The translations under genes and the position numbers were made by a program. A stretch of 52,804 nt of DNA, taken from the NCBI RefSeq assembly GCF_000761485.1, contig NZ_JPMX01000077.1, positions 11,768 to 64,571 of the forward strand, given 5' to 3'. The notes beneath the pieces are model-generated. The model was not told the origin of the DNA. It saw only the letters and a list, made by a program, of their open reading frames with translations, and did not search any database. Source of the DNA: Modestobacter caceresii (GTDB lineage: Bacteria; Actinomycetota; Actinomycetes; Mycobacteriales; Geodermatophilaceae). Shown here piece by piece: positions 9,435 through 48,019 of this stretch; position 1 is the first letter of the stretch, and the number at the start of each line of letters is the position of its first letter.

Positions 9435-9507
9435 CCAGGGGACGGTCCACAGGCTGGACACACCTCGGGCACAGCGGCGTGCCACCGAGCCTGACGAGGC
9501 TGGGGGC

Positions 9508-9801
9508 ATGACAGCGTGGACGGCACCCGGCTCCGACACGACCGGACCAGTCGGGAGGGCGCCGGACATGGACGACGGCGCCGGGGCGATCCGGCGGGAC
9601 TTCCCGTTCCCCGAGGCCGGCGACCACCACATGCGGGAGTGGCCGCTGGTCTGGCACCCGGCACGCGGCCACTTCGAGCGCACCTGCCCGCACGGCGTCG
9701 GGCACCCCGACCCCGACGACGTCCTGTACCTCCAGTCGGTCGGCGGCGTCTCCGGCGCGCATCCCTGTGACGGCTGCTGCATCGCGCCGCTGCGGGACTG
9801 A
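9508..9801 (+). CDS. Small Cys/His-containing protein of unknown function
   Basis: A 97-residue soluble protein. The C-terminal half holds a likely metal- or thiol-active cluster: FERTCPHGVGHPDPDD followed by HPCDGCC. It lacks a signal peptide or membrane helix. The N-terminal 20 residues look disordered, so the true start may instead be the ATG at 9568 or 9631, before the conserved-looking REWPLVWHPARGHFERTCPHG. I recognise no family with certainty. Confidence 0.6.
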   Translation: MTAWTAPGSDTTGPVGRAPDMDDGAGAIRRDFPFPEAGDHHMREWPLVWHPARGHFERTCPHGVGHPDPDDVLYLQSVGGVSGAHPCDGCCIAPLRD

Positions 9802-9809
9802 CCCGACGG

Positions 9810-10541: not shown

Positions 10542-10567
10542 CGGGTGACCACGGTCATCGGCCGAGC

Positions 10568-11917
10568 CTACGAGTGAGCGGGTGCGGTCCAGTCGATCCG
10601 GTCGGCCAGGCGGTGCAGCCGCGCGCCGAACGCCGGGTCGACCGAGGCGGCCCAGGCCACCCGGCCCAGCACGTGGTCGCGGAAGGTGCCCGGGTCGCGG
10701 CCCCGGGTCTGCGTCGTCCAGCCGTGGACGGCGCAGTTGTGCAGCAGCGCCCGCAACGCGTCCCGCTCCGGCCTGGGCAGCGTCGGGTGGTCGTTGACCA
10801 CGGTGCCCAGCACCGCCTGCCGGCGGGCGGCGCTGGTGGCCGAGGTCTTCGCCGCGTTCACCCGGAAGCCCTCGTCGGTGACCACGTCGGTGACCAGGTC
10901 GGCGAACCGGTCGCGGGCGATCCGCCGGTCCCCGCTGAAGGTCAGGTCGTCGACGTACCGGGTGTAGGTGCCACCGGAGGCGGCGGCGAGGCCGGCCAGT
11001 CGGCGGTCGAGGCGGTGGCAGACCAGGTTGGCCAGCGCCGGGGACGTCGGGGCCCCCTGCGGCAGGTGCGGCACCGTCAGCCGCTGCTCCAGGCGCCGGT
11101 GCCGCTCCCGCGCCTCGATGCCGTCCGGGGGCGGGATGCGCCGCCACACCTCGGTCGGCAGCACCGTCGTCATCAGGCCGGTGAGCACGTGGGCCACCGG
11201 TTCGGGCAGCCCGGCGACGCCCAGCAGCAGGCCGTGCACCCGACCGGCGGCGACGCTGGCGAAGAACGCCTCCAGGTCCATCCGCAGCACGACCGCCGAC
11301 CCGGCGTGCGGGGCCACCGCGGTGCGCACCGAGCGGCCGGGCACGCAGCCGTGCGCGGCGTCGTGGGCCGGGACGCGGTCGAGCACGTGCCGCAGCAGCC
11401 GCCGCTGCGCCTCCTTGAGCCGCGGCTTGGGCGCGGCGAGCAGCCGGACCCCGGCCGGGCGCTGCACCACCCGCCACCGGTAGTGCCGCAGCGCCTCGCC
11501 GGCCGTGCGTTCCAGCCGGCGGGCGTCGGCGAACCACGCCAGCTCCCCGGCGTCGACGTCGAGCAGCCGGGCGACCGCGGCCTGGTCGGGGAGGTCGGCG
11601 ACCGGCCACCGGCGCCAGGCCAGCGCCGTCGGCACCGGCTCCCACCGCACGGCCCGGGCGAGTGGCCGGTGGGACTGCCCGCGCTCCCACCCCTGGGTCG
11701 TCCGGACGACGCGGGCCAGCTCCCGCGGCCGGTCGACCGGGGCGGTGGGGTAGACCGTCTGCACCTCGCCGACCAGCGTGCCCACCCAGGTGCGGGCGCG
11801 GGCCTGGCCCAGCGCCACCGCGACCCGGCGGACCATCTCCCGCCGTCGCCACGGGCCGGCCAGCAACGCGGTCGCGATCGCTGCGGCGGTGGCGGCGGCC
11901 TGCCGCTCGGCGGTCAT
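10568..11917 (-). CDS. Retron-type reverse transcriptase
   Basis: A 449-residue protein. About 140 N-terminal residues precede the RT core (HYRWRVV, then APKPRLKEAQRRLL). RT motifs are complete: the first catalytic Asp in RMDLEAFFASV (Asp214), LPQGAPTSPALANL (285-298), the active-site YVDD (321-324) and FRVNAAKTS (351-359). Positions that in retron RTs read NAxxH and VTG here read AVAPH (200-204) and VLG (369-371), recognisable but altered. The layout, with a long N-terminal extension, resembles the myxobacterial type of retron RT. GGGAG lies six bases before the ATG, immediately after a bounded, hairpin-rich region described next. No maturase or integrase domain is present, so a group II intron is unlikely. 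Confidence 0.92.
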   Translation of the reverse strand: MTAERQAAATAAAIATALLAGPWRRREMVRRVAVALGQARARTWVGTLVGEVQTVYPTAPVDRPRELARVVRTTQGWERGQSHRPLARAVRWEPVPTALAWRRWPVADLPDQAAVARLLDVDAGELAWFADARRLERTAGEALRHYRWRVVQRPAGVRLLAAPKPRLKEAQRRLLRHVLDRVPAHDAAHGCVPGRSVRTAVAPHAGSAVVLRMDLEAFFASVAAGRVHGLLLGVAGLPEPVAHVLTGLMTTVLPTEVWRRIPPPDGIEARERHRRLEQRLTVPHLPQGAPTSPALANLVCHRLDRRLAGLAAASGGTYTRYVDDLTFSGDRRIARDRFADLVTDVVTDEGFRVNAAKTSATSAARRQAVLGTVVNDHPTLPRPERDALRALLHNCAVHGWTTQTRGRDPGTFRDHVLGRVAWAASVDPAFGARLHRLADRIDWTAPAHS

Positions 11918-11930
11918 CGCAGCTCCCGAG

Positions 11931-12091
11931 GTGCACGGCGGGGCGGCCAGCCGCTCCTCGCTGGAGGCGCCGCCTGGTGCGCGGAGCGCACAGCGCGGCT
12001 CATGACGCGATGCCCGACCTGCTCACGATGCCCCGGGGTTGCCCCGGGGTGACCGGCTGCTGCCGGTCGTCCTGCCCGCCCCGTCGTGCAC
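11931..12091 (-). ncRNA. Candidate retron msr-msd RNA
   Basis: This 161-base stretch directly upstream of the RT is bounded by inverted repeats of 16 bases (12076-12091 and 11931-11946) that pair at 15 of 16 positions, like the a1/a2 repeats of retrons. Inside are, in transcript order, GACCGG/CCGGTC with a six-base loop (12051-12068), CCCCGGGG/CCCCGGGG with loop CAA (12031-12049), GTGCGC/GCGCAC with loop TCC (11977-11991) and CCAGC/GCTGG (11947-11964). A -10-like box ends six bases before the 5' repeat. The usual branching AGC next to a1 is not evident and there is no single long msd hairpin, so this remains a candidate. The alternative is a structured RT leader, possibly with a leaderless 21-codon peptide starting at 12091. 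Confidence 0.5.
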
Positions 12092-34870: not shown

Positions 34871-35797
34871 TCAGTCGTGGGCGACGAGCTCGTGGTCGGC
34901 GTGCGTGGCGGCCTCCAGCTGGAAGGTCGAGTGCTCGACGCTGATGTCGAAGTGCTCGGCGAGGCAGGCCTGCAGTCGGTCGAGCACCTGCGGGGCGTGC
35001 CCGTCGTAGAAGCAGGAGTCCTCCACGACGACGTGCGCGGTGAGCACCGGCAGCCCGGTGGTGATCTGGGAGGCGTGCAGGTCGTGGACCGCCAGCACGC
35101 GGGGTTGGGCGAGCAGGTGGGTGCGCACGGCGTCCAGATCGAGTCCCGGTGGGGCGCTCTCCAACAGCACCGACACCGTTTCGCGCAGCAGCTTGAGCGT
35201 GCGCGGCACGATGAGCGCGACGATCACCAGGGAGGCGATCGCGTCGGCCTGCTGCCATCCGGTGAGCGCGATGACGGCGGCGGAGACCAGCACCGCGACC
35301 GAGCCCAGCGCGTCGTTGACGACCTCGAGCAGCGCCGCGCGCATGTTGACGCTGCCCTCGCGGGCGCCGCCGCGGGTGAGCACCAGGATGCCGATGATGT
35401 TGGCGGCCAGGCCGAACGCGCCGAAGACCAGCACGGAGGTGGAGGCCACCTCGGTCGGCTCGAACAGCCGGCCGACGGCCTCGATGCAGATCCAGCTGCC
35501 GACGGCCAGCAGCACGGCGGCTTGCAGGGTGGCGCCGAGCACCTCGGCCCGCCGGTACCCCCAGGTGCGCCGGGCCGTGGCCGGGCGCAACGCCAAGGTG
35601 GCCGCAAGCAGTGCGATGACCAGGCCGGCGGCGTCGGTGGCGGCGTGCGCGGAGTCCGCGGCGAGCGCCAGGGATCCCGAGACCAGCGCGCCGACCAGTT
35701 GCAGGACGAGCACGCTGACGGTCAGGGCGAGCACGATGAGCAGGCGGCGGCGGTCGGCTCCGGCCCCGCCGTGCGCGTGGTCGTGTCCGGCGCTCAT
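34871..35797 (-). CDS. Cation diffusion facilitator (CzcD/ZitB-type)
   Basis: A 308-residue CDF exporter. It starts with a His-rich loop (MSAGHDHAHGG), has six helices, and shows the transport-site pattern in LALAADSAHAATDAAGL (helix 2, Asp and His) and LLEVVNDALGSVAVL (helix 5, Asn-Asp). The cytoplasmic C-terminal metallochaperone-like domain ends with several His. Likely substrate Zn(II) and related divalent ions. AAGGAG precedes the ATG, which overlaps the previous gene's stop as ATGA. It is the last gene of the ArsR-led operon. Confidence 0.92.
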   Translation of the reverse strand: MSAGHDHAHGGAGADRRRLLIVLALTVSVLVLQLVGALVSGSLALAADSAHAATDAAGLVIALLAATLALRPATARRTWGYRRAEVLGATLQAAVLLAVGSWICIEAVGRLFEPTEVASTSVLVFGAFGLAANIIGILVLTRGGAREGSVNMRAALLEVVNDALGSVAVLVSAAVIALTGWQQADAIASLVIVALIVPRTLKLLRETVSVLLESAPPGLDLDAVRTHLLAQPRVLAVHDLHASQITTGLPVLTAHVVVEDSCFYDGHAPQVLDRLQACLAEHFDISVEHSTFQLEAATHADHELVAHD

Positions 35798-36429
35798 CTG
35801 GTGCTCCTTCCCTGGGAGGCGAGAGGGGCCGCCGCGGTGAGACGTCCGACGCCGGGCAGGAACCGGCCGGTCCGCTCGGCGTAGGCGGCGTACGTCCCGC
35901 CGTGGACGGTGCGCAGGTAGGGCTCCTCCACGGCCCGGACCTGCAGCTGGATCGCGGCCACCAGCGCGACCACCGCCAGGATGCTCACCCAGGTCGGGAC
36001 CATGAGCACCACACCGGCCTGGGCGACGGTCATCGCCGTGAAGATCGGGTTGCGGACGTGGGCGAACACGCCCGTGGTGACCAGATCGGTGCGCTCGCCC
36101 GGGTCGACACCGATCCGCCAGGAGGCACCCATGCCGGTCTGCCCGGCCAGCGTCGCGGCGAACCCGGCCAGGGCCAGCACCAGCCCGGCCAGCTGCACGG
36201 CGGCTGGCGCGGCGGCGGGAACGACGCCGAGGACGGCCAGCAGCAGGCCGGCCAGCCCGGCGACCAGGGCAGCGAGGAACAGGACCCCGCCCCACCAGCC
36301 GGCCTGCGCCGGCGTGCCGGAGATCCCGTGGAAACCGGCCGAGCCGGTGCGGCGGTACTGGACCGCCGACCGGACACCGAACAGCACGACGAGCGCCACG
36401 ACGTAGAGAACGAGTGCGGCGGTGGTCAT
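35794..36429 (-). CDS. Isoprenylcysteine carboxyl methyltransferase (ICMT)-family membrane protein
   Basis: A 211-residue integral membrane methyltransferase. The SAM-binding C-terminal signature is present: TTGVFAHVRNPIFTAM and AVEEPYLRTVHGGTYAAYAERTGRFLP. Bacterial members often sit beside metal exporters, but their substrate is unknown; nothing here suggests prenylated proteins. The gene is tied to the CDF gene downstream by an ATGA overlap and starts 5 bp after the stop of the upstream CDF gene, so it is an integral part of the operon. Confidence 0.88.
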   Translation of the reverse strand: MTTAALVLYVVALVVLFGVRSAVQYRRTGSAGFHGISGTPAQAGWWGGVLFLAALVAGLAGLLLAVLGVVPAAAPAAVQLAGLVLALAGFAATLAGQTGMGASWRIGVDPGERTDLVTTGVFAHVRNPIFTAMTVAQAGVVLMVPTWVSILAVVALVAAIQLQVRAVEEPYLRTVHGGTYAAYAERTGRFLPGVGRLTAAAPLASQGRSTR

Positions 36430-36434
36430 CGGAG

Positions 36435-37211
36435 CTACTCCCGGGGCGTGATGGTCAGGGTCTGCGGTGCCGGCGCATCGTGGGCACAGCACGCGTCGCT
36501 GCAGCCGTCACCGCAGCAGCCCGACCCGCCGGCACTCCCCGCGTCGTGTCCGTCGGCCCCCGGTCGGGACGGCGCGCAGCAGCCCTCGCCCCGCCACGCC
36601 TGCACCGCTTCGCGGGCGGCGACGGCCGCAATCACCAGGCCGGCGACCGGATCGGCCCAGCTCCACCCGAGGGCCGCGTTCAAGATCAGGCCGATGGCGA
36701 CGGCCGCTGAGAGCCAGGCACACAGCGCGGTCTGCGTGCCGTCGGCCACGACGGCGTCGGAGCCCAGCGCTCGCCCGGTGCGCCGCTGCGCCCAGGACAG
36801 GAACGGCATGACGATCAACGAGGCGACCGTCAGCGCGATCCCGACCGGCGAGGCCTCGGGCTCGGCGCCGGCGGCCAGCGCCCGCACCGACTCCACGCCA
36901 ACGACCACCGCCAGCGCGGCGAACGCCACCGCCATCGCCCGCTGCGCAGCCCGCTCCCGGGTCTCGGGCAGCCGGTGGGAGAACTGCCACAGGACGATCA
37001 GCCCGCTGGACACCTCGATGATGCTGTCGGCGCCGAAGCCGACCAGCGCCACCGACCCGGCGACCAGCCCCGCGGTGATCGCCACGACCGCTTCCACCGC
37101 GTTGTAGGACACACTGACGCCGGCCAGCAGCCGCGCGCGGCGGCCGAGCCGGGCCCGCTCGGTGACGGGCAGGCCCGCGGGTGCGGGGGCATGGGCGTGG
37201 GCGGCGCTCAT
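36435..37211 (-). CDS. CDF-type cation transporter with Cys-rich C-terminal tail
   Basis: A 258-residue transporter. Helices carry LVGFGADSIIEVSSGLIVLW (Asp and Glu in the transport helix) and LGSDAVVADGTQTALCAWLSAA. The usual cytoplasmic C-terminal domain is replaced by a roughly 40-residue tail with CCAPS, GCCGDGC and ACCAHD clusters, eight or so cysteines in all, likely to bind soft metals such as Zn, Cd or Cu. It is the second CDF protein of the operon and directly follows the ArsR gene with an ATGA overlap. Confidence 0.88.
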   Translation of the reverse strand: MSAAHAHAPAPAGLPVTERARLGRRARLLAGVSVSYNAVEAVVAITAGLVAGSVALVGFGADSIIEVSSGLIVLWQFSHRLPETRERAAQRAMAVAFAALAVVVGVESVRALAAGAEPEASPVGIALTVASLIVMPFLSWAQRRTGRALGSDAVVADGTQTALCAWLSAAVAIGLILNAALGWSWADPVAGLVIAAVAAREAVQAWRGEGCCAPSRPGADGHDAGSAGGSGCCGDGCSDACCAHDAPAPQTLTITPRE

Positions 37212-37558
37212 CGGGCCACCGCCTCGCCGGTCACGGCGCTCAGCAGCCGGTGCCCGACATCGGTGAGCCGGTACATGACCAGCTTCCCTTGCCGCTGGGA
37301 CTGGGCAAGGCCTGCTCCGCGCAGCACGCCGCAGTGGTGGCTGACTGTCTTCTCCGGCAGCTCGGTGACCCAGGCGAGATCGCACACGCACAGCTCGGCC
37401 AACCCCAGTGCCGCAGCGATCCGGAGTCGCGTCGGGTCGGCCAGCGCCTTGGCCCGCGTTGCTTGCGCGCGGGCCTGCTCCTGCCCGGTCAGCCGGGCAC
37501 GGACGGCCTCGGCCTGCGCCAGGTCCAGGCACAGCAGGTCGCAGCTGTCGTCGGTCAT
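37208..37558 (-). CDS. ArsR/SmtB-family metal-sensing repressor
   Basis: A 116-residue winged-helix repressor. ALADPTRLRIAAALGLAELCVCDLAWVTELPEKTVSHHCGVLRGAGL is the DNA-binding core, with CVCDLA at the start of the recognition region as in CmtR/CadC-type alpha-3 metal sites. The N-terminal SCDLLCLD adds two cysteines that can complete a thiolate site for Cd, Pb or Zn. It heads the operon ArsR-CDF-ICMT-CDF and should repress it from the dyad at 37594-37619. GGAGGA precedes the ATG. Confidence 0.92.
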   Translation of the reverse strand: MTDDSCDLLCLDLAQAEAVRARLTGQEQARAQATRAKALADPTRLRIAAALGLAELCVCDLAWVTELPEKTVSHHCGVLRGAGLAQSQRQGKLVMYRLTDVGHRLLSAVTGEAVAR

Positions 37559-37593
37559 CGGTCCTCCATCTTCGCCGCGAGCCTGACGTCTCA

Positions 37594-37619
37594 TCCCAAC
37601 ATACCAACGGCCATTGGGA
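37594..37619. promoter_or_regulatory. ArsR-type operator and promoter
   Basis: TCCCAA and TTGGGA form the outer arms (37594-37599, 37614-37619) and CCAA/TTGG an inner pair. TATGTT on the minus strand lies between them as a likely -10. The dyad is 36 bp upstream of the repressor start, which fits autoregulation. Confidence 0.6.
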
Positions 37620-37958
37620 CGACACGCATCGAGCGCACGGATCCGCAGTTGATGTCGGCGGCACCGAGCAGGTCGGTCAGCTGTGCCAGCGTCACCTCGA
37701 GCGCGTCCGCCGACGCGGTCTCGGTCTCCCCCCTCCCGCGGGGTGCCGGCCACCGGCCCGATCCCGATGGTGTGCCACCCGGTGAGGACGGCCCGTTCGG
37801 TCTCGGTGCAACCACGACCGGGGCGCCGCGTCGGACGACAGAGACCACCCCGCCTTCCGCGCGGTCCAGGGTCCGCGCCAGTGGTCGCGAGTCCTGAACT
37901 GATGGGTCAGCTGAAAGCCCGCACTGGCCAGGCCCCGGGAGAGGGGGTCACGTTCTGC

Positions 37959-38129: not shown

Positions 38130-39005
38130 TCACACGATCGAGGTGCCGAGCCCGGTGGCGCCCAGCCACGCTCGCAGCCAGATCATCAACGCCTCCCACC
38201 AGCCGGTGACCAGCAGGATCCCGAGCAGGATGAGCAGCGCGCCCCCGACTCGCATGACGGTGGGGGCGTGGCGGCGTGCGAGGGCGGAGAAGGTCAGTGC
38301 GCGGCGGGCGCCGAGGGCGACGAGGACGAAGGGGACGCCCAGGCCCAGGCAGTAGGCGGCGGCGAGGATCGCGCCGCGGCCGGCCGAGGCCTGGGTGTAG
38401 GCCAGCGTGTTGACCGCGGCCAGGGTCGGGCCGAGGCAGGGCGTCCACCCGAGCCCGAACACGACGCCCAGCAGCGGCGCGCCGGCCAGCCCCGCCGGGG
38501 GACGTCGGTGGATGCGTCGTTCCCGCATCAGCCACGGCAGGACGCCGAGGAACGACAGGCCCATCGCGATGACGACCACACCGGCGACCCGGGTGAGCAC
38601 CGGGGACCACTCCAGCAGCAGCCGGCCCAGGCCGCCGAAGAGGGCGCCGAAGGAGATGAACACGGCGCTGAACCCGGCGATGAACAGCAGCGATCCGGCC
38701 AGCACCCGGCCGCGGCCGGCAGCTGCCGCGGCGGCGGGAGGCGAGCTGTCCGCAACGGCCTCTGTGTCGTTCTCGGTGGCGCAGCCGGGTGCTGGCGTCC
38801 CCGGCGCCCCTGTTGGGACCCGGACCCGGCCGGCGGTGGCCTGGGATCCGGTGAGCCCGGCGACGTAGCTGACGTAGCCGGGGATCAGCGGCAGGCAGCA
38901 GGGGGAGGCGAAGCTGATCAGCCCGGCCAGGGCGGCCACCGCCATCGCCAGTAGCAGCGAGCCGTCGGTGACGACGTCGGCGAAGGTGGTGCCGAGGTCG
39001 CTCAC
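38130..39005 (-). CDS. ccdA: CcdA-type thiol-disulfide transporter
   Basis: A 291-residue membrane protein with six helices. The two redox cysteines stand in SFASPCCLPLIPGYVSYVAG (helix 1) and FGLGWTPCLGPTLAAVNTLA (helix 4), the DsbD/CcdA pattern with Pro next to Cys. It carries electrons across the membrane to reduce extracytoplasmic thioredoxins. A low-complexity insert (about residues 62-98) separates helices 1 and 2. The GTG overlaps the tlpA-like stop by four bases, so the lipoprotein is its likely partner. Confidence 0.92.
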   Translation of the reverse strand: MSDLGTTFADVVTDGSLLLAMAVAALAGLISFASPCCLPLIPGYVSYVAGLTGSQATAGRVRVPTGAPGTPAPGCATENDTEAVADSSPPAAAAAAGRGRVLAGSLLFIAGFSAVFISFGALFGGLGRLLLEWSPVLTRVAGVVVIAMGLSFLGVLPWLMRERRIHRRPPAGLAGAPLLGVVFGLGWTPCLGPTLAAVNTLAYTQASAGRGAILAAAYCLGLGVPFVLVALGARRALTFSALARRHAPTVMRVGGALLILLGILLVTGWWEALMIWLRAWLGATGLGTSIV

Positions 39006-39595
39006 GCCCGGTCCTCGGCCAGGAGGAGCTCGACGGCGGTGCGTAGGTCATCGCCGCGGACCTGGCCGGTGTAGACGGCGGCCACCCGCCCGGTGCGGTC
39101 GAGCAGGATCGTGGAGGGCACCACGTTGGCCGGGAAGCCGCGGAAGGCCATCGCCACCTCACCGCGCGGGTCGAACACCGACGGGTAGGCCACCCCCAGC
39201 TCCTCGACGAAGGCGACTGCCAGCTGCCGCTGGTCCTTGACGTCGATGCCGAGGAACTGGACCCCGCGGTCGGCGACGTCGGCGTGCACGGCCTGGAACT
39301 CCGGGGTCTCCACCCGGCAGGGCACGCACCACGACCCCCAGGAGTTGATCACCGCGACGTCCCCGGCAAGGGAAGAGGAGTCGAACGGGCTGCCGTCCAG
39401 CAGCTCACCGGAGAAGGCCGGCGCCGGCGCCCGCCGGCCCTCGGCGATCACCGTCGCCGCCGGCGTCGGCTCGGTGAACTCGTACTCCTGGGTGGCCGCA
39501 GCGCCACCGCCCTCCCCGGCGGAACAACCGGCCAGCGCCCCAGCGGCTGCCCCGGCGGCCAGCAACAAAGTCCGGCGGCTGAACGGCCGGCTCAT
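39002..39595 (-). CDS. TlpA/ResA-like thioredoxin lipoprotein
   Basis: A 197-residue protein. The N-terminus combines a twin-Arg-like SRRTLLL with a lipobox LAGC (Cys24), then a short linker and a thioredoxin fold. The redox motif is WGSWCVPC (Cys90, Cys93) and the cis-Pro loop is FPANVVPSTILLD. It should reduce or exchange disulfides or deliver metal on the outer side of the membrane, powered by the overlapping ccdA gene. Two BlaI-type dyads lie about 90-130 bp upstream of its start. Confidence 0.92.
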   Translation of the reverse strand: MSRPFSRRTLLLAAGAAAGALAGCSAGEGGGAAATQEYEFTEPTPAATVIAEGRRAPAPAFSGELLDGSPFDSSSLAGDVAVINSWGSWCVPCRVETPEFQAVHADVADRGVQFLGIDVKDQRQLAVAFVEELGVAYPSVFDPRGEVAMAFRGFPANVVPSTILLDRTGRVAAVYTGQVRGDDLRTAVELLLAEDRA

Positions 39596-39683: not shown

Positions 39684-39701
39684 CTACTATGACAGGTAGC
39701 A
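39684..39701. promoter_or_regulatory. BlaI/CopY-type operator, copy 1
   Basis: CTACTATGACAGGTAGCA agrees with the best copy at 42491 in 14 of 18 positions without gaps. It lies in the divergent promoter region of the tlpA-ccdA unit and the small membrane protein/lgt unit, 89 bp from the tlpA start. Confidence 0.6.
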
Positions 39702-39709
39702 GCAGGCGT

Positions 39710-39727
39710 CTACTATCGACCGTAGTG
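39710..39727. promoter_or_regulatory. BlaI/CopY-type operator, copy 2
   Basis: CTACTATCGACCGTAGTG agrees with the copy at 42491 in 15 of 18 positions. Its TACTAT is a good -10 for the rightward unit whose first ATG is at 39765. The centres of copies 1 and 2 are 26 bp apart. Confidence 0.65.
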
Positions 39728-39764
39728 GTTCGCCGTCGGGGCGTCCCGCATCCCTGGAGGGCCG

Positions 39765-39977
39765 ATGTCCGAGCTGCTCTACCTGCTGGCGCTGCTGGCC
39801 TGCCCGATCGGCATGGGCGCGATGATGTGGATGATGAACCGCGGCCACAGGTCGCGGCCGCAGGCGACCGAGGACAAGCAGATCGAGCTCGCCGGCCTGC
39901 GCGCCGAGATCGACCAGCTGCGCGCCGAGCGCTCCGATGCCGGTGGGCACCCGCGGCTGGCCGAGCCGCGCCGATGA
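39765..39977 (+). CDS. Small membrane protein with coiled-coil tail
   Basis: A 70-residue protein: one N-terminal helix ([21 protein letters not shown]) with a Cys and five Met in or next to it, then a charged region [19 protein letters not shown] predicted to form a coiled coil. The Met/Cys-rich helix in a copper-type operon suggests a metal link, but this is inference. GGAGG precedes the ATG. The ATGA overlap with the next gene couples the two. Confidence 0.75.
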
Positions 39978-40162
39978 GCGAGTGGGTGGTACCGGTCCTC
40001 GTCCTCGCCGTGGCCCTGGCCGTGGCCTATCGGTGCTGCCTGCGGCCGCTGCGCAGCGGAGCCTGCCACCTCAGCCCGGCCAGAGATCGGGCTGGGATCG
40101 AGGGTCTGGACCGGCAGCTGCGCCAGTCGCGCGCTGAGCGGGACCAGCTGCGCGCCCGGTAG
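39974..40162 (+). CDS. Small membrane protein, 62 residues
   Basis: One N-terminal transmembrane helix ([18 protein letters not shown]) ending in a vicinal Cys pair, then a helical tail [19 protein letters not shown] that resembles the tail of the preceding protein. The two may pair through these tails. The start overlaps the previous stop as ATGA. Function unknown. Confidence 0.7.
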
Positions 40163-40252
40163 TCCAACCCCCCGGCTTCCGGTGAGGGCGCCGGGTGCCC
40201 CGCGCGATCGTCGGGCCGCCCGGGACTTCCAGTACCAGAGAGGAATCGATCG

Positions 40253-41005
40253 GTGAGACCGATCCTGTTCGAGGTCTTCGGCTTCCCCATCCACAGCTAT
40301 GGGGTCAGCAAGGCCGCCGCCGCCCTGGTCGCCGGCTACCTGCTGGCCCGGGAGTTCCGCCGCCTGAACTGGGAGCCCGACCGTGCCTGGTCCATCGTGG
40401 CGACCGCCACGGTCGTCGGGTTCGCCGGGGGCAAGCTGTACTTCCTGGCCGAGCACGCCGACAACCTGTCGGCGCACTCCTTCGGGGGCTCGGGGTTCAC
40501 CTGGTACGGCGGCCTGATCGCCGGCGCCGCCACGGTGATGGTGATGGCCCGCCGCTACCGGCTGCCGCTGGCGCAGCTGGCCGGTGTGGCGGCCGCACCG
40601 CTGTCGGTTGCCTACGGGATCGGCCGGATCGGCTGCTTCCTGGCCGGGGACGGCTCCTACGGTCAGCCCTCGGACCTGCCGTGGGCGACCGCGTTCCCCA
40701 ACGGCATGGTGCCCACGGTGGTGCCGGTGCATCCGGCGTCCCTGTACGAAGCCGCCGCCGCACTCGCCGTCGGCGGGCTGCTGTGGGCGCTGCGAACCCG
40801 GTGGTCACCGCTGGCCGTCGTGGGGCTGTACGCGGTGCTCAGCGGAACGGCGCGGTTCCTGGTGGAGGAGATCCGGATCAACCCCGAGGTACTGGTCGGG
40901 TTGACCCAGCCGCAACTGTGGTCGGCACTGCTCGTCGTGGGCGGCGCGGCCCTGCTGGTCGCCTCCTCAGCGCGTCGAGTCCGTCCTGCCCCCGTGCCCG
41001 GGTGA
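40253..41005 (+). CDS. lgt: Lgt-like prolipoprotein diacylglyceryl transferase (metal-island paralogue)
   Basis: A 250-residue membrane enzyme with seven predicted helices. FGFPIHSYGVSKAAAALVAGYLLARE, TWYGGLIAGA, VAYGIGRIGCFLAGDGSYG and PVHPASLYEAAAAL follow the Lgt order. In the signature GRIGNFxNGE of housekeeping Lgt, this protein has Cys for Asn (128) and Asp for Glu, a variant that defines a paralogue type. It would add diacylglycerol to lipobox cysteines; at least four lipoproteins are encoded around it. GAGAGGA is upstream of the GTG. Confidence 0.88.
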   Translation: MRPILFEVFGFPIHSYGVSKAAAALVAGYLLAREFRRLNWEPDRAWSIVATATVVGFAGGKLYFLAEHADNLSAHSFGGSGFTWYGGLIAGAATVMVMARRYRLPLAQLAGVAAAPLSVAYGIGRIGCFLAGDGSYGQPSDLPWATAFPNGMVPTVVPVHPASLYEAAAALAVGGLLWALRTRWSPLAVVGLYAVLSGTARFLVEEIRINPEVLVGLTQPQLWSALLVVGGAALLVASSARRVRPAPVPG

Positions 41006-41036
41006 CCCGATCGGGTGGTCGGCGCGGCGGCCTCGC

Positions 41037-41054
41037 CCACTACGTGCGGTAGTA
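41037..41054 (+). promoter_or_regulatory. BlaI/CopY-type operator, copy 3 (before the repressor gene)
   Basis: CCACTACGTGCGGTAGTA matches the copy at 42491 in 14 of 18 positions and contains the exact arms ACTAC and GTAGT. It lies about 90 bp upstream of the repressor ATG, which fits autoregulation. Confidence 0.6.
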
Positions 41055-41145
41055 CTGTGGCCGGAAGTTCCGCCGACGTCGGCGGGTTGCCCAGGCGACA
41101 CGGTGCAGCACCCGGTCGTGCGCTGGAACGGTGATGGAGGTGGCG

Positions 41146-41514
41146 ATGCGACCCTTCGGCGAGCTGGAAGCCGCGGTCATGGACGTGCTGTGGCGACGTG
41201 GGACCCCGGCGACGGTGCGCGAGGTCCTCGAGGAGCTGAACACGACCCGGTCGCTGGCCTACACCACGGTGATGACCGTGTGCTCGAACCTGGCCGGCAA
41301 GGGCGCGCTGCGGCGGGAGATGGAAGGCCGCGGCTGGCGGTACAGCCCCACCCGCACCCGGGCCGAGCACTCCGCGGTGCAGCTGCGTGACGTGCTCGGC
41401 GCGGCCGGGGACCGCGACGAGGTCCTCATGCACTTCGTCGCCGATCTGGACCCCGAATCGGTCGCGAGCCTGCGCAGTGCGGTCGAGGCCGCCCGGCAGG
41501 CGAAGAACGCGTGA
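41146..41514 (+). CDS. BlaI/MecI/CopY-family repressor
   Basis: A 122-residue winged-helix repressor of the penicillinase-repressor family. FGELEAAVMDVLWRRGTPATVREVLEELNTTRSLAYTTVMTVCSNLAGKGALRREMEGRGWRYSP is the family core, with the VxTxLxxLxxKGxL recognition helix region, and the C-terminal dimer part is short. GGAGG lies just before the ATG at 41146. In BlaI and MecI, repression ends when the partner M56 protease is activated; CopY releases DNA on Cu(I). The CxC-type copper hook of CopY is absent, so the protease partner next door probably signals. Confidence 0.93.
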   Translation: MRPFGELEAAVMDVLWRRGTPATVREVLEELNTTRSLAYTTVMTVCSNLAGKGALRREMEGRGWRYSPTRTRAEHSAVQLRDVLGAAGDRDEVLMHFVADLDPESVASLRSAVEAARQAKNA

Positions 41515-42470
41515 CCACCGCGGTCGGGCTGCTCGCCTTCGCCGCGGTCATGGCGGTGCTGGCGCCGCGGGCGCTGGGTGCCGGCTGGTCGGCGCGGTCT
41601 CCACGGCTGGCGCTGGCCGCATGGCTGGCGGCCTCGGCCGGGGTCCTGGTCTCGGTGGTGCTGGCCGGGTTGACGCTGCTGGTGCCGGCGACCGCGGTCA
41701 GCCAGGGACTGGCCGCGATCCTCGACGCCTGCGCGATGACGATCGCCGGGGTGTACCGCTCACCCGGACAGCTGGCCGCCGTGCTCACCGGCGTCGCGCT
41801 CACCGCCGGCACGCTGCTGCGCCTGGGCTGGGTGGCAGTCGGCGACATGAGGCGCACCCGCCGGGAACGCCACCGGCTGCACGCCGCCATCGCCACCGGC
41901 GCACGCACCGAGCCGTCCCTGGGTGCGGCGGTGCTGGACTCCGACCGGCCGGCCGCGTTCTGCTTGCCCGGGCGGCGCCGCAGCGTCGTGGTGACCACCG
42001 CCGCCCTCGATGCGCTCACCGGCGACGAGCTCGCCGCCGTGCTCGCCCACGAGCGGGCCCACCTGCGCGGCCGTCACCACCTGGCCGCGGGCGCGGTGCG
42101 AACCCTCGAGCGAGCCTTCCCCGGTGTGCCGCTGTTCACCCAGGGCCGGGCGGAGGTCGAGCGGCTGGTCGAGCTGCTCGCCGACGACGCCGCCGCCCGG
42201 CGCGTGGACCGGGTCGAGGTCGCCTCCGCGCTGGTGACCCTCGCCGGCATGCGTGCTCCGGCCGCTGCACTGCCGGCCGCCCAGGGTGCCGGTGCGTTCC
42301 GGGTGACCCGGCTCCTACGCCCGGGCGCCCCACTGGGCCTGCTGGCCCGGCTGAGTGCCGGGTTTGCCGTCGTCGCGGTGGTGACCGGGCCGGTGGCGCT
42401 GGCCACGTGGCCGCTCGCTGATGCGGTGGCCAGTGGCCTGTGCCTGCTCCCCGGGGCCGACTGGGTCTGA
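41511..42470 (+). CDS. M56 (BlaR1-like) membrane metalloprotease
   Basis: A 319-residue membrane protein. Three N-terminal helices lead to a cytosolic zinc-protease loop with VLAHERAHLRGRHHL (HERAH, residues 180-184) and a downstream ERLVELLADDAAAR providing the third ligand. One more helix pair closes the C-terminus. There is no penicillin-binding sensor domain, so the signal is not a beta-lactam recognised in the BlaR1 way. The GTG overlaps the repressor stop, as in other BlaI-M56 pairs. It should cleave or inactivate the repressor when triggered. Confidence 0.92.
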   Translation: MTTAVGLLAFAAVMAVLAPRALGAGWSARSPRLALAAWLAASAGVLVSVVLAGLTLLVPATAVSQGLAAILDACAMTIAGVYRSPGQLAAVLTGVALTAGTLLRLGWVAVGDMRRTRRERHRLHAAIATGARTEPSLGAAVLDSDRPAAFCLPGRRRSVVVTTAALDALTGDELAAVLAHERAHLRGRHHLAAGAVRTLERAFPGVPLFTQGRAEVERLVELLADDAAARRVDRVEVASALVTLAGMRAPAAALPAAQGAGAFRVTRLLRPGAPLGLLARLSAGFAVVAVVTGPVALATWPLADAVASGLCLLPGADWV

Positions 42471-42490
42471 CCGGCGGCTGGCCGCACCGG

Positions 42491-42508
42491 CTACTATGGA
42501 CGGTAGTA
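42491..42508 (+). promoter_or_regulatory. BlaI/CopY-type operator, copy 4 (best copy)
   Basis: CTACTATGGACGGTAGTA has arms TACTA and TAGTA separated by seven bases. Its TACTAT serves as a -10 box, so repressor binding would block RNA polymerase directly. The BNR lipoprotein ATG is 26 bp downstream. Confidence 0.75.
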
Positions 42509-42534
42509 AGCACTGTCCGGCCCTTGGGGAACTG

Positions 42535-43488
42535 ATGCTGTCGTCCGTCCTGCCCGTCCACACCACCCGTTCGACCCGACCCGGGATGCCGGGCCGCAGC
42601 TCACGGCGCTGGAACGCACTGGGCGTGGCCGCGGCCGGCGCGCTGCTCCTCGCCGGCTGCGGCACCGACGGCGAGGCTGCCGCCGGCGAGGCTGCCGGCG
42701 GTGAGACCCACAGTCACGAGGGCGACGCGCATGCCTCCGGCGAAGAGGTCACCCTCGAGCACGTGCACGGCCTCGGCGTCGACCCCGGCGACGGGGAGCT
42801 GTACGCCGGCACCCACTACGGGCTGGTGCGCATCTCCGAGAGCGGGGAGCTGACCCGGATCGCTGACCGGGTGCAGGACTTCATGGGCTTCACCGTTGCC
42901 GGCCCGCAGCACTACCTGGCCAGTGGCCACCCCGGCGCCGGACAGGGCGGGCCGGGCAACCTCGGCCTGATCGAGACCACCGACGGCGGCCAGACCTGGG
43001 AGACGCTGTCACTGCCCGGCGAAGCCGACTTCCACGCCCTGGACGCCGCCGACGGCACGATCTACGGCTACAGCGGCGGCCAGCTGCTCGTCAGCGAGGA
43101 CGGCGAGGAGTGGGCCGACCGCGGTGACATGCGCATCGCCGACCTGGCCGCCGACCCGGCCGACCCCCAGCGGGTGCTGGCCACCACCGAGGCCGGTCTG
43201 GTGGTCAGCGAGGACGCCGGGGGGACGTTCACCGCCGTTGAGGGTGCGCCGCTGATGGTGCTGGTCGACATCGCCGCCGACGGGGGACAGGCCGCCGGGG
43301 TGGCTCCCGACGGCACGGTCTTCAGCAGCACCGACGCCGGGGAGACCTGGGCCGAGGCCGGGAACGTCGGCGGCGCGCCGGCGGCGCTGACCGTCGAGGA
43401 GAACGAGGTCTACGTCGCCGTGGACGGTGCGGTGCTGGCCTCGACCGACGGCGGTGCGACCTTCACCGAGCTCTACCGGGAGCGCTGA
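42535..43488 (+). CDS. BNR-repeat lipoprotein (F510_1955-type glycosylhydrolase-like)
   Basis: A 317-residue lipoprotein with lipobox LAGC (Cys42, or Cys25 if translation starts at Met18). A His/Glu linker (ETHSHEGDAHASGEE) precedes a beta-propeller of sialidase-like Asp-box blades: TTDGGQTWE, SEDGEEW, SEDAGGTF, STDAGETWAE and STDGGATFTE. The first blade begins EHVHGLGVDPGDG. Proteins of this kind are annotated as glycosyl hydrolases but occur with copper genes and lack shown enzymatic activity. The linker histidines suggest metal binding. The stop overlaps the next start (TGATG). Confidence 0.85.
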   Translation: MLSSVLPVHTTRSTRPGMPGRSSRRWNALGVAAAGALLLAGCGTDGEAAAGEAAGGETHSHEGDAHASGEEVTLEHVHGLGVDPGDGELYAGTHYGLVRISESGELTRIADRVQDFMGFTVAGPQHYLASGHPGAGQGGPGNLGLIETTDGGQTWETLSLPGEADFHALDAADGTIYGYSGGQLLVSEDGEEWADRGDMRIADLAADPADPQRVLATTEAGLVVSEDAGGTFTAVEGAPLMVLVDIAADGGQAAGVAPDGTVFSSTDAGETWAEAGNVGGAPAALTVEENEVYVAVDGAVLASTDGGATFTELYRER

Positions 43489-44072
43489 TGGCGGTCCGGC
43501 TGGCCGGCGGGCTGCTCGCAGCCACCCTGCTGGCCGGCTGCACTACCGGACAGCAGGGTGCGCCGGATCGGGAGTCCGCGGCCGGAGAGGCAGTGCCGGC
43601 CGCACCGGCCTGCGAGCAGCTCCCCGAGCGGCCGGCGGAGGCCGACCAGTTGCCCGCGCTGACCCTGCCGTGCCTGGGGCCAGGTCCCGACGTGGCCCTG
43701 GACCGGCTGACCGGCCGACCGACCCTGGTCAACCTGTGGGCGACCTGGTGCGGCCCGTGTCGGGAGGAGATGCCGCTGCTGCAGGACGCCCACGCCCGCC
43801 ACGGCGAGCAGATCCGGTTCCTGGGTGTCGACGTTCAGGACGATCCCGAAGCTGCCCGGTCGTTCCTGGCCGAGCTCGGGGTCGGCTATCCGCACGCCGT
43901 CGACGCCGACGGGGAGCTGCTGCGCGAGCTGGGCGGCCGTGGGCTCCCGATCACCCTCGCAGTGGACGCCGAGGGGCGCGTTCTCGAGCAGGTGATGGGG
44001 CAGCTGAGCGCCGAGGAGCTGGAGCGGCTGACCGACACGCTGCTCTCCTCTGACTCACCCGGCGGTTCGTGA
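43488..44072 (+). CDS. Second TlpA-like thioredoxin lipoprotein
   Basis: A 194-residue protein with lipobox LAGC (Cys18), two further cysteines in the linker (Cys42, Cys62) and a thioredoxin domain with WATWCGPC (Cys88, Cys91) and cis-Pro loop RGLPITLAVD. It differs from the first TlpA-like protein in the WCGPC motif and the extra Cys pair. It probably keeps exported copper proteins reduced or transfers metal. It starts one base inside the stop of the BNR lipoprotein gene and so shares its operator. Confidence 0.92.
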   Translation: MAVRLAGGLLAATLLAGCTTGQQGAPDRESAAGEAVPAAPACEQLPERPAEADQLPALTLPCLGPGPDVALDRLTGRPTLVNLWATWCGPCREEMPLLQDAHARHGEQIRFLGVDVQDDPEAARSFLAELGVGYPHAVDADGELLRELGGRGLPITLAVDAEGRVLEQVMGQLSAEELERLTDTLLSSDSPGGS

Positions 44073-44243
44073 CCGCGCCGCCTGCAGGTGGGCGTCGCCG
44101 CAGCCGGCCCCCCACCGCCAGGCGGCGAGGAACATGTCGAACTGCTGTTCTCCGTACGACTGCACGGGTATGCCGACGCCATCGGCGTCAGTCCCGGCCG
44201 GCGGCGTGAGCCGGCCGGCGCCGCGCAAGACCGAGGAGTTCCC

Positions 44244-44651
44244 ATGACCGTGGCCGCCCAGATGCTCGACACGTACCCGAAGGACCTCGGTGGGGTGGAC
44301 AAGCAGAAGCTGCTGGAGTGCATCGAGGCGTGCTTCGAGTGCGCCCAGGCGTGCACCGCCTGCGCCGACGCCTGCCTGTCCGAGGACATGGTCGTCGAGC
44401 TGACCAAGTGCATCCGCACCAACCTCGACTGTGCCGACGTCTGCGCAACGACCGGGCGGGTGCTGTCCCGGCACACCGGCTACGACGCCAACCTGACCCG
44501 CGCGGTCCTCGAGGCGTGTGCCGCCGCCTGCAAGGCGTGTGGGGACAACTGCAGCGAGCACGCCGAGATGCACGAGCACTGCCGGGTCTGCGCCGAGGCC
44601 TGCCGTCGCTGCGAGGCCGCCTGCCGCGACCTCATCAGCTCCCTGGGCTGA
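44244..44651 (+). CDS. Four-helix-bundle copper-storage-type protein (Csp-like, DUF326)
   Basis: A 135-residue all-helical protein with 18 cysteines, nearly all in CxxC or CxxxC spacing along helices (LECIEACFECAQACTACADAC; LEACAAACKACGDNC; HCRVCAEACRRCEAACR). This matches the Csp family, whose tube of Cys thiolates stores many Cu(I) ions. It lacks a signal peptide, so it is a cytosolic Csp3-like form. GAGGAG precedes the ATG. It is the third gene after the operator at 42491, with 170 bp of spacer before it, and a very strong hairpin follows. Confidence 0.93.
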   Translation: MTVAAQMLDTYPKDLGGVDKQKLLECIEACFECAQACTACADACLSEDMVVELTKCIRTNLDCADVCATTGRVLSRHTGYDANLTRAVLEACAAACKACGDNCSEHAEMHEHCRVCAEACRRCEAACRDLISSLG

Positions 44652-44721
44652 CGCCGGCCCTCCGGGCGTCGAGCAGGGGGGCCTCCAGCAGGGCCTCCTG
44701 GCTCGCGTCTGCAGTCGCACC

Positions 44722-44777
44722 ACCGATCACGCCCGGCCGCAGGTGGCCAGGGCCACCTGCGGCCGGGCGTGATCGGT
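44722..44777. terminator. 27-bp perfect inverted repeat after the copper-storage gene
   Basis: 44722-44748 and 44751-44777 are exact reverse complements with only AG between them. The cruciform or RNA hairpin is unusually long and perfect. It lies 70 bp after the copper-storage stop and about 105 bp before the next operator, so termination, insulation or a duplicated terminator are all possible. There is no T tract. Confidence 0.75.
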
Positions 44778-44883
44778 CACGGGGTAGCGAGGTCGCAGCA
44801 CGACACCGCTGAGAACGACGACGACCTGACTGAACGCACGTCCGCCGATGCTGCCGTGCACCCGCGCTGGCGACCCGACCGAG

Positions 44884-44901
44884 GTACTATGGAAGGTAGT
44901 A
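44884..44901 (+). promoter_or_regulatory. BlaI/CopY-type operator, copy 5
   Basis: GTACTATGGAAGGTAGTA differs from the copy at 42491 at only two of 18 positions. TACTAT again forms the likely -10. The Met-rich peptide ATG lies 34 bp downstream. Confidence 0.75.
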
Positions 44902-44935
44902 GTTTGACAGGTCGACGCAAGCGAAGGAGTGGATC

Positions 44936-45175
44936 ATGGTCAGGTCGCTGGTGGTAGCCGTGCTGGTCGCCGGAGGAGTCGCCGTCCCCGCCGGGGTCGC
45001 CCAGGCGCACCCGGGCAGCGGCGGGCAGTCGCAGGGCCCAGGGATGGCGCAGATGCACGAGCTGATGGAGCAGGGGAACCCCGGCATGGCGCGGATGCAC
45101 GAGCTGATGCAGGCCGAGAATCCCGGCATGGCGCAGATGTGCGAGCGGATGCACGCCGACGCCGATCAGGCCTGA
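44936..45175 (+). CDS. Met/His-rich secreted peptide, probable Cu(I) binder
   Basis: A 79-residue precursor with a signal peptide ending AQA (cleavage after residue 24). The mature part of about 55 residues is built from three near-identical 14-residue repeats of the form (G/N)PGMA(Q/R)MHELM; the last has Cys in place of His (QMCERM). Such Met-x-x-Met-His clusters bind Cu(I) or Ag(I) outside the cell. GAAGGAG precedes the ATG. It has its own BlaI-type operator and is probably co-transcribed with the SHOCT protein. I know no named family for it. Confidence 0.85.
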   Translation: MVRSLVVAVLVAGGVAVPAGVAQAHPGSGGQSQGPGMAQMHELMEQGNPGMARMHELMQAENPGMAQMCERMHADADQA

Positions 45176-45259
45176 TCCGCACCAGGGGCCAGTGGTCACC
45201 GAACATCTGCCGCCGGGCGCTCGCAGCGAGCTCCCGGTGGCCCGAGGGAAGGACAACCG

Positions 45260-45532
45260 ATGGGCGACGGCGGCACGATGATGGGCACGATGATGGGCGG
45301 CTGGATGCTGCTGTGGGCCTTGCTCGGGCTCGCCGTACTCGTCCTGGCGGCGCTGGGTGGAGTCTGGTTGGCCCGCCGACTCGGCCGGGATCGGGACGAG
45401 CAGACCCGCGGCACGTCCGGGCCCTCGGATGCGGCTCCCGGCGCCCAGGAGCTGCTCCGTCGGCGCTATGCCGCCGGCGAGATCGACCGTGAGGAGTACC
45501 TGCGCACGCAGCGAGACCTCGCCGAGGGCTGA
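45260..45532 (+). CDS. SHOCT-domain small membrane protein
   Basis: A 90-residue protein. A Met-rich start (MGDGGTMMGTMMGGWM) enters one transmembrane helix, followed by a charged linker and a C-terminal SHOCT motif (AQELLRRRYAAGEIDREEYLRTQRDL). SHOCT pieces mediate oligomerisation. The Met-rich lip at the outer membrane face suggests a copper contact in line with the neighbours. GGAAGGA lies upstream of the ATG. Same direction as the Met-rich peptide, 84 bp behind it. Confidence 0.85.
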   Translation: MGDGGTMMGTMMGGWMLLWALLGLAVLVLAALGGVWLARRLGRDRDEQTRGTSGPSDAAPGAQELLRRRYAAGEIDREEYLRTQRDLAEG

Positions 45533-45595
45533 CCGTTCCCGGCGGGAGCCTCCACATCGCCGGCGCCGGTTGACCCGGTTGGCGCCCGGGCGGGG

Positions 45596-46390
45596 TCAGC
45601 CGGCGGCGGCCAGGCGGCTGAGGTCCTCGGCGTACTGGCCCGGCGTCGTTCCGCCGGTGTAGATGACTGCCTGACCGCCGGGGCCCCAGACGTACACGGT
45701 GCCGGCGTGGTCGACGCCGTAGTCGCCGTGCGTGTGCCCGTCTGGCTCGTGCGCCTCCTCTGCTTCGTGCACCTCCTCCGCCTCGTGCGCCTCCTCCGCA
45801 TTGCCGTCCTCGACGTCGTGGGGGTGGACGATCGCCGTCGACGGGTCGGCGATTTCAGCGCTCTCAGGCAGGTGCAGCTCGGTCAGCACGGTGGCGGTGG
45901 CCTCGGTGCCGCCAATGAGCCCGGTGAACGCCGGATCGAAGCGGCCCAGCCACTCGCTCAGCAGCTGCGGGGTGTCCCGGGCCGGGTCTTCGGTCACGAA
46001 CACCACCTGCACCCGGTCACGGACCTCTGGCGCCAGCATGTCCCGGGCGAGGGCGAGGGCGAGGTCGGCCATCGTCGTCGGGCACAGGTCCGGGCAGTGG
46101 GTGTAGCCGAAGAACAGCACCGTGACCTCGTCGGCCGGCCGGTCGCCGAGGTCGAACAGCTCCCCGCCGGTCGTGGGCAGCACCAGCTCCGGGCGCGGTG
46201 GTGCCGGGTCCAGCCGCGTGCCGTGGAAGCCGTCCTCGGCACCGCTGACGGTCACCTCAGCACCGCTGATGGTCACCCCGGCCCCGGAGACGGCATCGCC
46301 CTGCGGGGTCTCCTCGCCGCAGCCGGCCAACACCAGCCCGGCTGTCACCACGACCACGCCGATTGCGGCGCGACCTGACACTGTGCGCAC
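45596..46390 (-). CDS. SCO1/SenC-type copper chaperone lipoprotein with His/Glu insert
   Basis: A 264-residue protein with lipobox LAGC (Cys24). The thioredoxin-like domain carries YTHCPDLCP (Cys99, Cys103), and the copper-binding His follows late in GVDHAGTVYVW. Between them sits a non-standard insert of about 25 residues built from AEEAHE/AEEVHE repeats and ending GHTHGD, able to bind extra metal. SCO proteins load copper into cytochrome oxidase or buffer thiols. GGAGG is six bases before the GTG at 46390; an upstream in-frame GTG at 46435 is less likely. A BlaI-type operator lies 46 bp upstream. Confidence 0.93.
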   Translation of the reverse strand: MRTVSGRAAIGVVVVTAGLVLAGCGEETPQGDAVSGAGVTISGAEVTVSGAEDGFHGTRLDPAPPRPELVLPTTGGELFDLGDRPADEVTVLFFGYTHCPDLCPTTMADLALALARDMLAPEVRDRVQVVFVTEDPARDTPQLLSEWLGRFDPAFTGLIGGTEATATVLTELHLPESAEIADPSTAIVHPHDVEDGNAEEAHEAEEVHEAEEAHEPDGHTHGDYGVDHAGTVYVWGPGGQAVIYTGGTTPGQYAEDLSRLAAAG

Positions 46391-46435
46391 CAGACCTCCT
46401 GAGCTTGCTGACCGGGATGAGCGCCGGCCCCACAC

Positions 46436-46453
46436 TACTACCGAGCATCGTAG
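46436..46453 (-). promoter_or_regulatory. BlaI/CopY-type operator, copy 6
   Basis: On the minus strand CTACGATGCTCGGTAGTA matches the copy at 42491 in 15 of 18 positions. Its orientation and distance to the SCO1 start mirror the other copies. Confidence 0.65.
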
Positions 46454-47359: not shown

Positions 47360-48019
47360 CTACCGGCGGTTGGGTTCCAGCCGTGAACGAGCACAAGGGG
47401 CTGTCCACGGATACGGAGCTGCCCGAACGCCTCGTTCGGCCCAGGTGTGCAGCGTGACGAAGTCCCAGAACGTGTCGTGCGCCGACTGTGCCGGCGGGAT
47501 CTCCCGGTCCGGATGCGGCTTCCCGGCGTGGATGATGTCCGAGAACTTGATCGCGTCCTGGATGAAGAAGACCGGCATGTTGTCGCCGACCAGGTCCCAG
47601 GTGCCTTCCTTCGTGTAGGACTTCGTCGCGAAGCGGCGGGTGTCGCGCACGGTGTCGGCCGAGCCGCGCGTGCCCAGCACCGTGGAGAACCGGACGAACA
47701 CCGGCGTCTCCAGGCCCTCCTCCGCCCGCACCGCCGCCCGGGTCACCCCGGCCGCGTTGCCGTAGGCGGTGAAGACGCCGTGCGCCCCGGCGCCGCGGGC
47801 GTGCACCACGCGCTCCGGGATCCGCTCGTGGTCGAAGTGCATGATCTTCTCGCGGAGGTGGAAGTCCTCCAGCAGCACCGGCCCGCGGCGTCCCGCCTTC
47901 AGCGAGTGGTCGGTGTCCGGGATGCGCACGCCGTTGGGCGTGGTGAGGAACTCGCCGGCCCGGGCGCGGGGGTCCCGCCCCTTCTCGGGGCCTTCGTGGA
48001 CCACGCCGGTGGCGCTCAC
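47360..48019 (-). pseudogene. Truncated catalase (N-terminal third)
   Basis: Residues 1 to about 190 match a monofunctional heme catalase: [56 protein letters not shown] with the distal His, then [18 protein letters not shown] and [16 protein letters not shown]. Homology stops after [11 protein letters not shown] near position 47450, and the last 30 residues are unrelated. The part with the proximal heme-ligand Tyr is missing, so no active catalase can be made. The N-terminus and GTG start are intact, so the loss was at the 3' end. Confidence 0.85.

Follow-up and report, generated by a model that had tools for sequence, protein, structure and literature searches.

What does a BlaI-type repressor control, and to which signal does it respond, when it is found in the middle of a set of copper and thiol genes? 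BlaI and BlaR1 form the textbook beta-lactam switch. The locus studied here lies in a stretch of 52,804 nucleotides from Modestobacter caceresii (GCF_000761485.1, contig NZ_JPMX01000077.1), called the window below, in which an earlier note had described six copies of an 18-bp dyad within positions 39,684-46,453 and had proposed that they form one regulon around a BlaI-family repressor and its protease. Our data indicate that the six dyads are quite probably operators of the BlaI encoded at 41146-41514, and that the adjoining protease, sensing a copper or thiol signal outside the membrane, would cut BlaI and thus derepress the set. The case for the dyads as putative operators is strong, and the reading of the whole set as a single regulon, with the operator class corrected, is strongly supported by the genome comparisons; from the sequences we infer the binding of BlaI, its cleavage and the identity of the inducer.

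All six 18-mers were found at the positions and on the strands claimed for them (Table 1). In the order 39684, 39710, 41037, 42491, 44884 and 46436 they share 14, 15, 14, 18, 16 and 15 of 18 positions with CTACTATGGACGGTAGTA, which is site 42491 itself. When TACTAYNNNNNRTAGTA (TACTAY-N5-RTAGTA) was searched with up to two mismatches, exactly six sites were found in the 52.8 kb; 100 shuffles gave a mean of 0.08 and at most 2. A weight matrix built solely from 31 sites in relatives, with the window left out, ranked the six dyads first at 18.7-27.8 bits, the next best score being 10.1 (31857) and the best of 20 randomised windows 14.3. The earlier note had asked for a motif scan of the whole genome and would have taken a motif common throughout it as refutation; the scan went against such a refutation, the dyad not being common elsewhere: with up to one mismatch it occurs at 9 places in 4.95 Mb (139 contigs), 6 of which are within these 6.8 kb, and the reversed pattern used as a control occurs at 3. 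Judged by reading frames, two of the remaining three places are within coding frames (C44, C75) and one is upstream of a gene pair on C73. This C73 place (G000:C73:2858-2874) is a one-mismatch dyad in front of a ribbon-helix-helix/toxin-like (antitoxin-like) pair and is probably an unrelated autoregulatory site. The sites do precede unit starts, as had been proposed, but 39684 and 39710 share one divergent gap, 26 bp apart, from which tlpA is read leftwards and the small membrane protein gene rightwards. For SCO1 the start used in Table 1 is the more likely one. The position of site 3 would be consistent with autoregulation of blaI, and the copper-storage-protein gene has no dyad of its own.

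The dyad follows the repressor among relatives. In 112 genomes of the family, own genome included, the exact dyad was present in 22 of the 41 with an island-type BlaI and in 0 of the 71 without it (p 2e-12, which is overstated since the sequences are related); an island-type BlaI (class 1 or 2) was a best hit per genome with E of about 2e-25 or better, a cut set post hoc at a gap. Out of 39 exact sites, 37 were on the same contig as the island-type BlaI, 31 within 10 kb and 35 within 20 kb. In nine syntenic genomes (own and 8 relatives) the dyad was sought within 160 bp upstream of each gene. With up to one mismatch it was found before the BNR lipoprotein gene in 9/9, the Met-rich peptide gene in 8/8, tlpA in 8/9, the small membrane protein gene in 6/7, and blaI and SCO1 in 5/9 each; a sixth SCO1 site, in L068, was missed by this count but seen when the site-to-start distances were taken. 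With up to two mismatches the counts rose to 9/9, 8/8, 9/9, 7/7, 8/9 and 7/9, respectively. Genes inside the units (Lgt, protease, TlpA2, CcdA, SHOCT) gave 0/39 in the same genomes even at two mismatches, and a null set of 176 other genes, which takes in neighbours of class-1b islands, gave 4 at one and 14 at two.

The arrangement of the sites is also kept. Paired sites at 26-bp spacing, with up to one mismatch, occur in the own genome and in 4 of the 8 syntenic relatives (L067, L070, L074, L080). The distance from site to start is 27-32 for BNR, where one value of 128 reflects a start misplaced by the gene caller, 36-50 for SCO1, 35-46 for the Met-rich peptide, and 36-41 and 62-65 for the small membrane protein. 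It should be noted here that most of the 40 fetched relative regions were picked because they held a dyad or matched BlaI strongly, and counts of paired sites, distances, spacing and promoter overlap were therefore not blind; the own-genome scan, the 112-genome comparison, the weight matrix, and, both described below, the 152-BlaI set and the dyad counts at BlaI loci with and without the cysteine pair are less affected by this choice. The claim that TACTAT doubles as a -10 box was supported for this island type by one-sided conservation. TACTAT fits TAnnnT and is read in the gene direction in 4 of the 6 window sites; among 53 gene-oriented sites, T at base 6 was found in the left half but not the right in 25 and the reverse in 1, with no -35 element recognised among them. 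Sites upstream of c15 (DUF6153-like) and c1 clusters, which belong to other island types, mostly read TACTAC on either side of the spacer, and the overlap is therefore particular to the present island type rather than general to the sites.

The repressor matches the Penicillinase_R winged-helix family PF03965 over residues 5-114 of 122 (88.1 bits against a cut-off of 22.6), and its frame overlaps that of the adjacent BlaR1-type protease by 4 bases (41511-41514). The genome codes for a second, housekeeping BlaI (C75:69151-69582; L099), which is 43% identical. The promoter of its gene contains TTCTAC-N5-GTAGAA repeats; the exact pattern is found at only 2 places in the genome, both there, and is present in 21/21 housekeeping blaI promoters (own and 20 relatives). 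A role for this BlaI at the island sites is therefore disfavoured. Its gene and a cydA-like gene are read divergently in the own genome and in 20/20 relatives, and the own cydA-like gene stayed below the cut-offs of the cytochrome bd subunit I models that it matched. The arrangement points to cytochrome bd being under BlaI control in the family. The two repressor types differ in the recognition helix, YxxxM in the island type (TACTAY) and LxxxH in the housekeeping type (TTCTAC). A set of 152 distinct BlaI sequences remained after removal of duplicates, of hits that started late and of rows that lacked the helix pattern or had too little upstream DNA. Among them 119 had Y..M, and a TACTAY dyad lay within 200 bp upstream in 22 of them at one mismatch and 46 at two; four scrambled dyads gave 0 and 0-1 in the same regions. 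All 21 BlaI with L..H had the TTCTAC operator. The dyad fits an actinobacterial operator class which would be used by BlaI with a YxxxM helix and is distinct from the staphylococcal one. The likeness to BlaI/MecI operators that had been pointed out is weak, as the staphylococcal type is TACA/TGTA; KACANNTGTM has 0 matches in the window (mean expected 0.94), and a staphylococcal or CopY-type operator was rejected on this count.

Table 1. Dyad sites and genes of the island (window coordinates)
Feature	Position	Strand	Remarks
Dyad site 1	39684..39701	+	TACTATGACAGGTAGCA core; divergent gap tlpA / small membrane protein
Dyad site 2	39710..39727	+	TACTATCGACCGTAGTG core; 38 bp upstream of small membrane protein start
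Dyad site 3	41037..41054	+	CACTACGTGCGGTAGTA core; ~92 bp upstream of blaI
Dyad site 4	42491..42508	+	TACTATGGACGGTAGTA; 27 bp upstream of BNR lipoprotein
Dyad site 5	44884..44901	+	TACTATGGAAGGTAGTA; 35 bp upstream of Met-rich peptide
Dyad site 6	46436..46453	-	TACGATGCTCGGTAGTA read on -; 46 bp upstream of SCO1 (start 46390)
CcdA/DsbD-like membrane protein	38130..39005	-	PF02683
TlpA-like thioredoxin lipoprotein	39002..39595	-	PF00578/PF08534
Small membrane protein, 70 amino acids	39765..39977	+	no Pfam family; kept in relatives
Lgt-like prolipoprotein diacylglyceryl transferase	40253..41005	+	PF01790
BlaI-family repressor	41146..41514	+	helix LAYTTVMTV; PF03965, E 7e-25; closest solved relative 2g9w
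BlaR1-like membrane zinc protease without sensor domain	41511..42470	+	HERAH 180-184; Cys74, Cys311
BNR-repeat lipoprotein, F510_1955 family	42535..43488	+	NF045728 above cut-off
Second TlpA/ResA-like thioredoxin lipoprotein	43488..44072	+	profile matches
Cys-rich Csp-like copper storage protein	44244..44651	+	PF03860; TIGR04401 below its cut-off
Secreted Met/His-rich peptide, 79 amino acids	44936..45175	+	no family; kept in 8/9 syntenic genomes
Small SHOCT-like membrane protein	45260..45532	+	PF09851 below cut-off
SCO1/SenC copper chaperone lipoprotein	45596..46390	-	PF02630

In the proposed mechanism a BlaI dimer would occupy TACTAY-N5-RTAGTA in five promoter regions and cover the -10 box and the start in each. 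One, with two sites, would serve tlpA-ccdA on one side and the small membrane proteins with lgt on the other; the others would serve blaI and the protease, the BNR-tlpA2 unit, the Met-rich peptide unit and SCO1. Cys74 in the first outer loop of the protease and Cys311 in its short C-terminal tail could take up a signal from outside the membrane, for which Cu(I) or the oxidation of thiols driven by copper is the likeliest candidate; the protease would then cut BlaI inside the cell. Genes for copper storage and delivery, outer thiol reduction and lipoprotein maturation would be derepressed together. The pair of repressor and protease in the middle of the set is present as had been described, but Pfam names the protease Peptidase_M48 and not M56. 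It is an HExxH zinc protease of 319 residues within a four-helix membrane frame and ends 12 residues past the last membrane helix, and a Pfam search of it found no C-terminal beta-lactam sensor (penicillin-binding) domain. Its predicted model matched BlaR1 over the membrane and protease part in a fold comparison whose lower rows were PDB chains unrelated to proteases. One comparison of the protease used 30 hand-picked sequences. In the count over loci, a pair was scored for any Cys in the aligned loop plus tail (L207, whose gene is cut by the contig end, was dropped); copper genes were found nearby in 45 of 61 loci with the pair and in 2 of 18 without it. The two-cysteine receptor is the new element here and is put forward as a hypothesis.

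The setting of the island is one of copper and thiols: SCO1, the Csp-like protein, the Met-rich peptide, two TlpA and CcdA are all coded in the window. In the islands of relatives Pfam identified a CopA-type ATPase with a cupredoxin-like N-terminus (L067), a multicopper oxidase (L084), DUF305 (L094), DUF6153 (L092) and Lnt (L073), and CsoR- and CopZ-like proteins were read by eye. In L067 and L081 the dyad is found in the gap between the Met-rich gene and the CopA-type ATPase. The L067 frame (9110-11959, minus strand) codes for a P-type ATPase with an N-terminal cupredoxin-like domain and an HMA domain.

Could the dyads be bare promoter sequence, that is -10 elements, or chance matches? The fit of TACTAT to a -10 box in most window sites speaks for this. 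Against it, the second half-site is conserved too and the spacing is fixed, as exact TACTA-N7-TAGTA was found 61 times, N10 7 times and other spacings 0-1 times among loci many of which were fetched for having the dyad. Moreover, scrambled dyads were absent at BlaI loci, and the dyad gave 84 sites in 40/80 of them at up to one mismatch (24 exact) against 18 sites in 15/80 (0 exact) for the reversed control; the explanation is scarcely credible. It is highly improbable that BlaI binds copper directly in the manner of CopY, with the protease being secondary. BlaI does match the CopY/TcrY model TIGR02698, but at 36.6 bits against a cut-off of 121.95; it has no CxC motif, its single Cys (position 46, counted on the translation) is Met or Leu in most orthologs, and the CopY-type operator is absent, as given above. 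Copper binding by BlaI itself was rejected on the low score and the unconserved Cys.

If the same pair and operators were in use, the inducer could still be a beta-lactam or a signal from the cell wall, as it is in staphylococci and mycobacteria, and the family resemblance to BlaI and BlaR1 and the helix type shared with Rv1846c agree with this. The part of the earlier proposal which held that one signal controls the whole set is supported by the relatives in so far as the set behaves as a single regulon; beta-lactams as that signal did not fare as well, because the sensor domain is absent from the protease and all 7 PF13354 matches of the genome, in a search for this beta-lactamase family only, lie on contigs other than that of the island. 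The target genes moreover handle copper, thiols and lipoproteins, so beta-lactam sensing by the island system is unlikely. A respiratory signal is the main rival, since in other Mycobacteriales the exact dyad is found upstream of cydA-like genes (L275, L281), qcrB (L272) and ctaE (L283). The operators would then be real and the signal would be failure of copper-dependent oxidases, oxygen or the redox state of the membrane, and not copper itself. SCO1 serves the CuA oxidase, and the divergent cydA-like gene of the housekeeping blaI points the same way. Yet the housekeeping pair has its own operator, its protease lacks the Cys pair, and in relatives the neighbouring island genes are for the export and oxidation of copper; a respiratory signal is given a minor, though real, chance.

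Several observations weigh against the preferred reading of BlaI operators answering to copper or thiols. For 73 of the 119 YxxxM BlaI no site was found at up to two mismatches within 200 bp upstream. Class-1b islands (e.g. L090, L095, L100, L102) have weak or no dyads at blaI, and a simple palindrome search showed no clear common dyad in their promoters. In a class-level search of 394 genomes the exact dyad was present in 109, and the reversed control was frequent in many genomes too, so that beyond the family the pattern taken by itself carries little weight. As to the signal, 16 of the 61 Cys-pair loci have no copper marker, the main Cu-ATPase of the own genome (C9) has no dyad, and by fold score the protease model matches ZMPSTE24 no less well than BlaR1. 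Loci with the Cys pair carry the dyad no more often than loci without it (30/61 against 9/18), and hence operator and signal are separate claims.

Some other features of the region were observed. The stretch from the Csp-like gene to the Met-rich promoter contains a perfect inverted repeat of 27 bp (44722-44777), with 2 bases in its loop and no T run, which might be a terminator or a cruciform. A catalase frame (47360-48019, minus strand) covers only profile positions 1-163 of 383 and looks truncated. Two cation-efflux transporters and an ArsR-type regulator (34871-37753, minus strand) adjoin the island without dyads. In L267, L268, L276 and L278 of the Mycobacteriales the exact dyad lies 4-21 bp upstream of a similar glyoxalase-like gene (MRWRGVSHVEFAVL...).

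In this island the parts of BlaI/BlaR1 appear to work in copper and thiol homeostasis on the outer side of the membrane; a minimal receptor made of two cysteines would stand in for the sensor domain, and genes of lipoprotein maturation (lgt, lnt) would be joined with copper delivery in one regulon. As a tentative wider proposal, which taken as a whole we hold with less than even confidence, there could be a large actinobacterial branch of BlaR1-like proteases that have, instead of the beta-lactam sensor, two outer cysteines, in EL1 and in a short tail; these would form a switch, worked by Cu(I) or a disulfide, for the cutting of BlaI. In a single genome the copper/thiol and cytochrome bd branches would be separated by one half-site base (TACTAY against TTCTAC) and two helix residues (Tyr/Met against Leu/His). 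The switch would be closed by feedback, because it would induce CcdA-TlpA reductases that could reset the cysteines. If true, this would give a function to many unassigned actinobacterial BlaI-protease pairs and a simple receptor for asking how an outside signal activates a protease inside; it would also yield a readable operator code that pairs half-site base 2 with residues 39 and 43 of the helix.

No paper joining BlaI, M56 and copper was found among open-licence papers. Three known systems are closest to the island. CopY/CopR repressors have the BlaI-like fold family and the copper setting in common with the island. Their operator is given as RNYKACANNTGTMRNY in PMC7253601; in the island this operator is absent, there is no CxC metal site, and a protease partner is present. 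M. tuberculosis BlaI (Rv1846c) shares the YxxxM recognition helix (LAYTTVMAVL in 2g9w). The targets of this BlaI, in work of Sala from 2009, are reportedly the beta-lactam response and ATP synthase genes. In Mycolicibacter/Mycobacterium loci with the same BlaI type (L251, L253, L257, L262) a 1-mismatch TACGAC-N5-GTAGTA-like site is found 72-77 bp upstream, but the protease there lacks the Cys pair. Binding of M. tuberculosis BlaI to the Rv1303 and Rv2151c promoters by electrophoretic mobility shift assay is described in PMC12565901. The S. aureus BlaR1-BlaI system shares the repressor and the BlaR1-like zinc protease with the island. According to PMC9834060, S. aureus BlaR1 cleaves BlaI directly, has an N-out/C-out topology and has its outer loop EL1 at residues 56-96 between helices 2 and 3. 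The island system differs from it in operator and targets, and its protease has, in place of the sensor domain, an outer-loop Cys and a short Cys tail.

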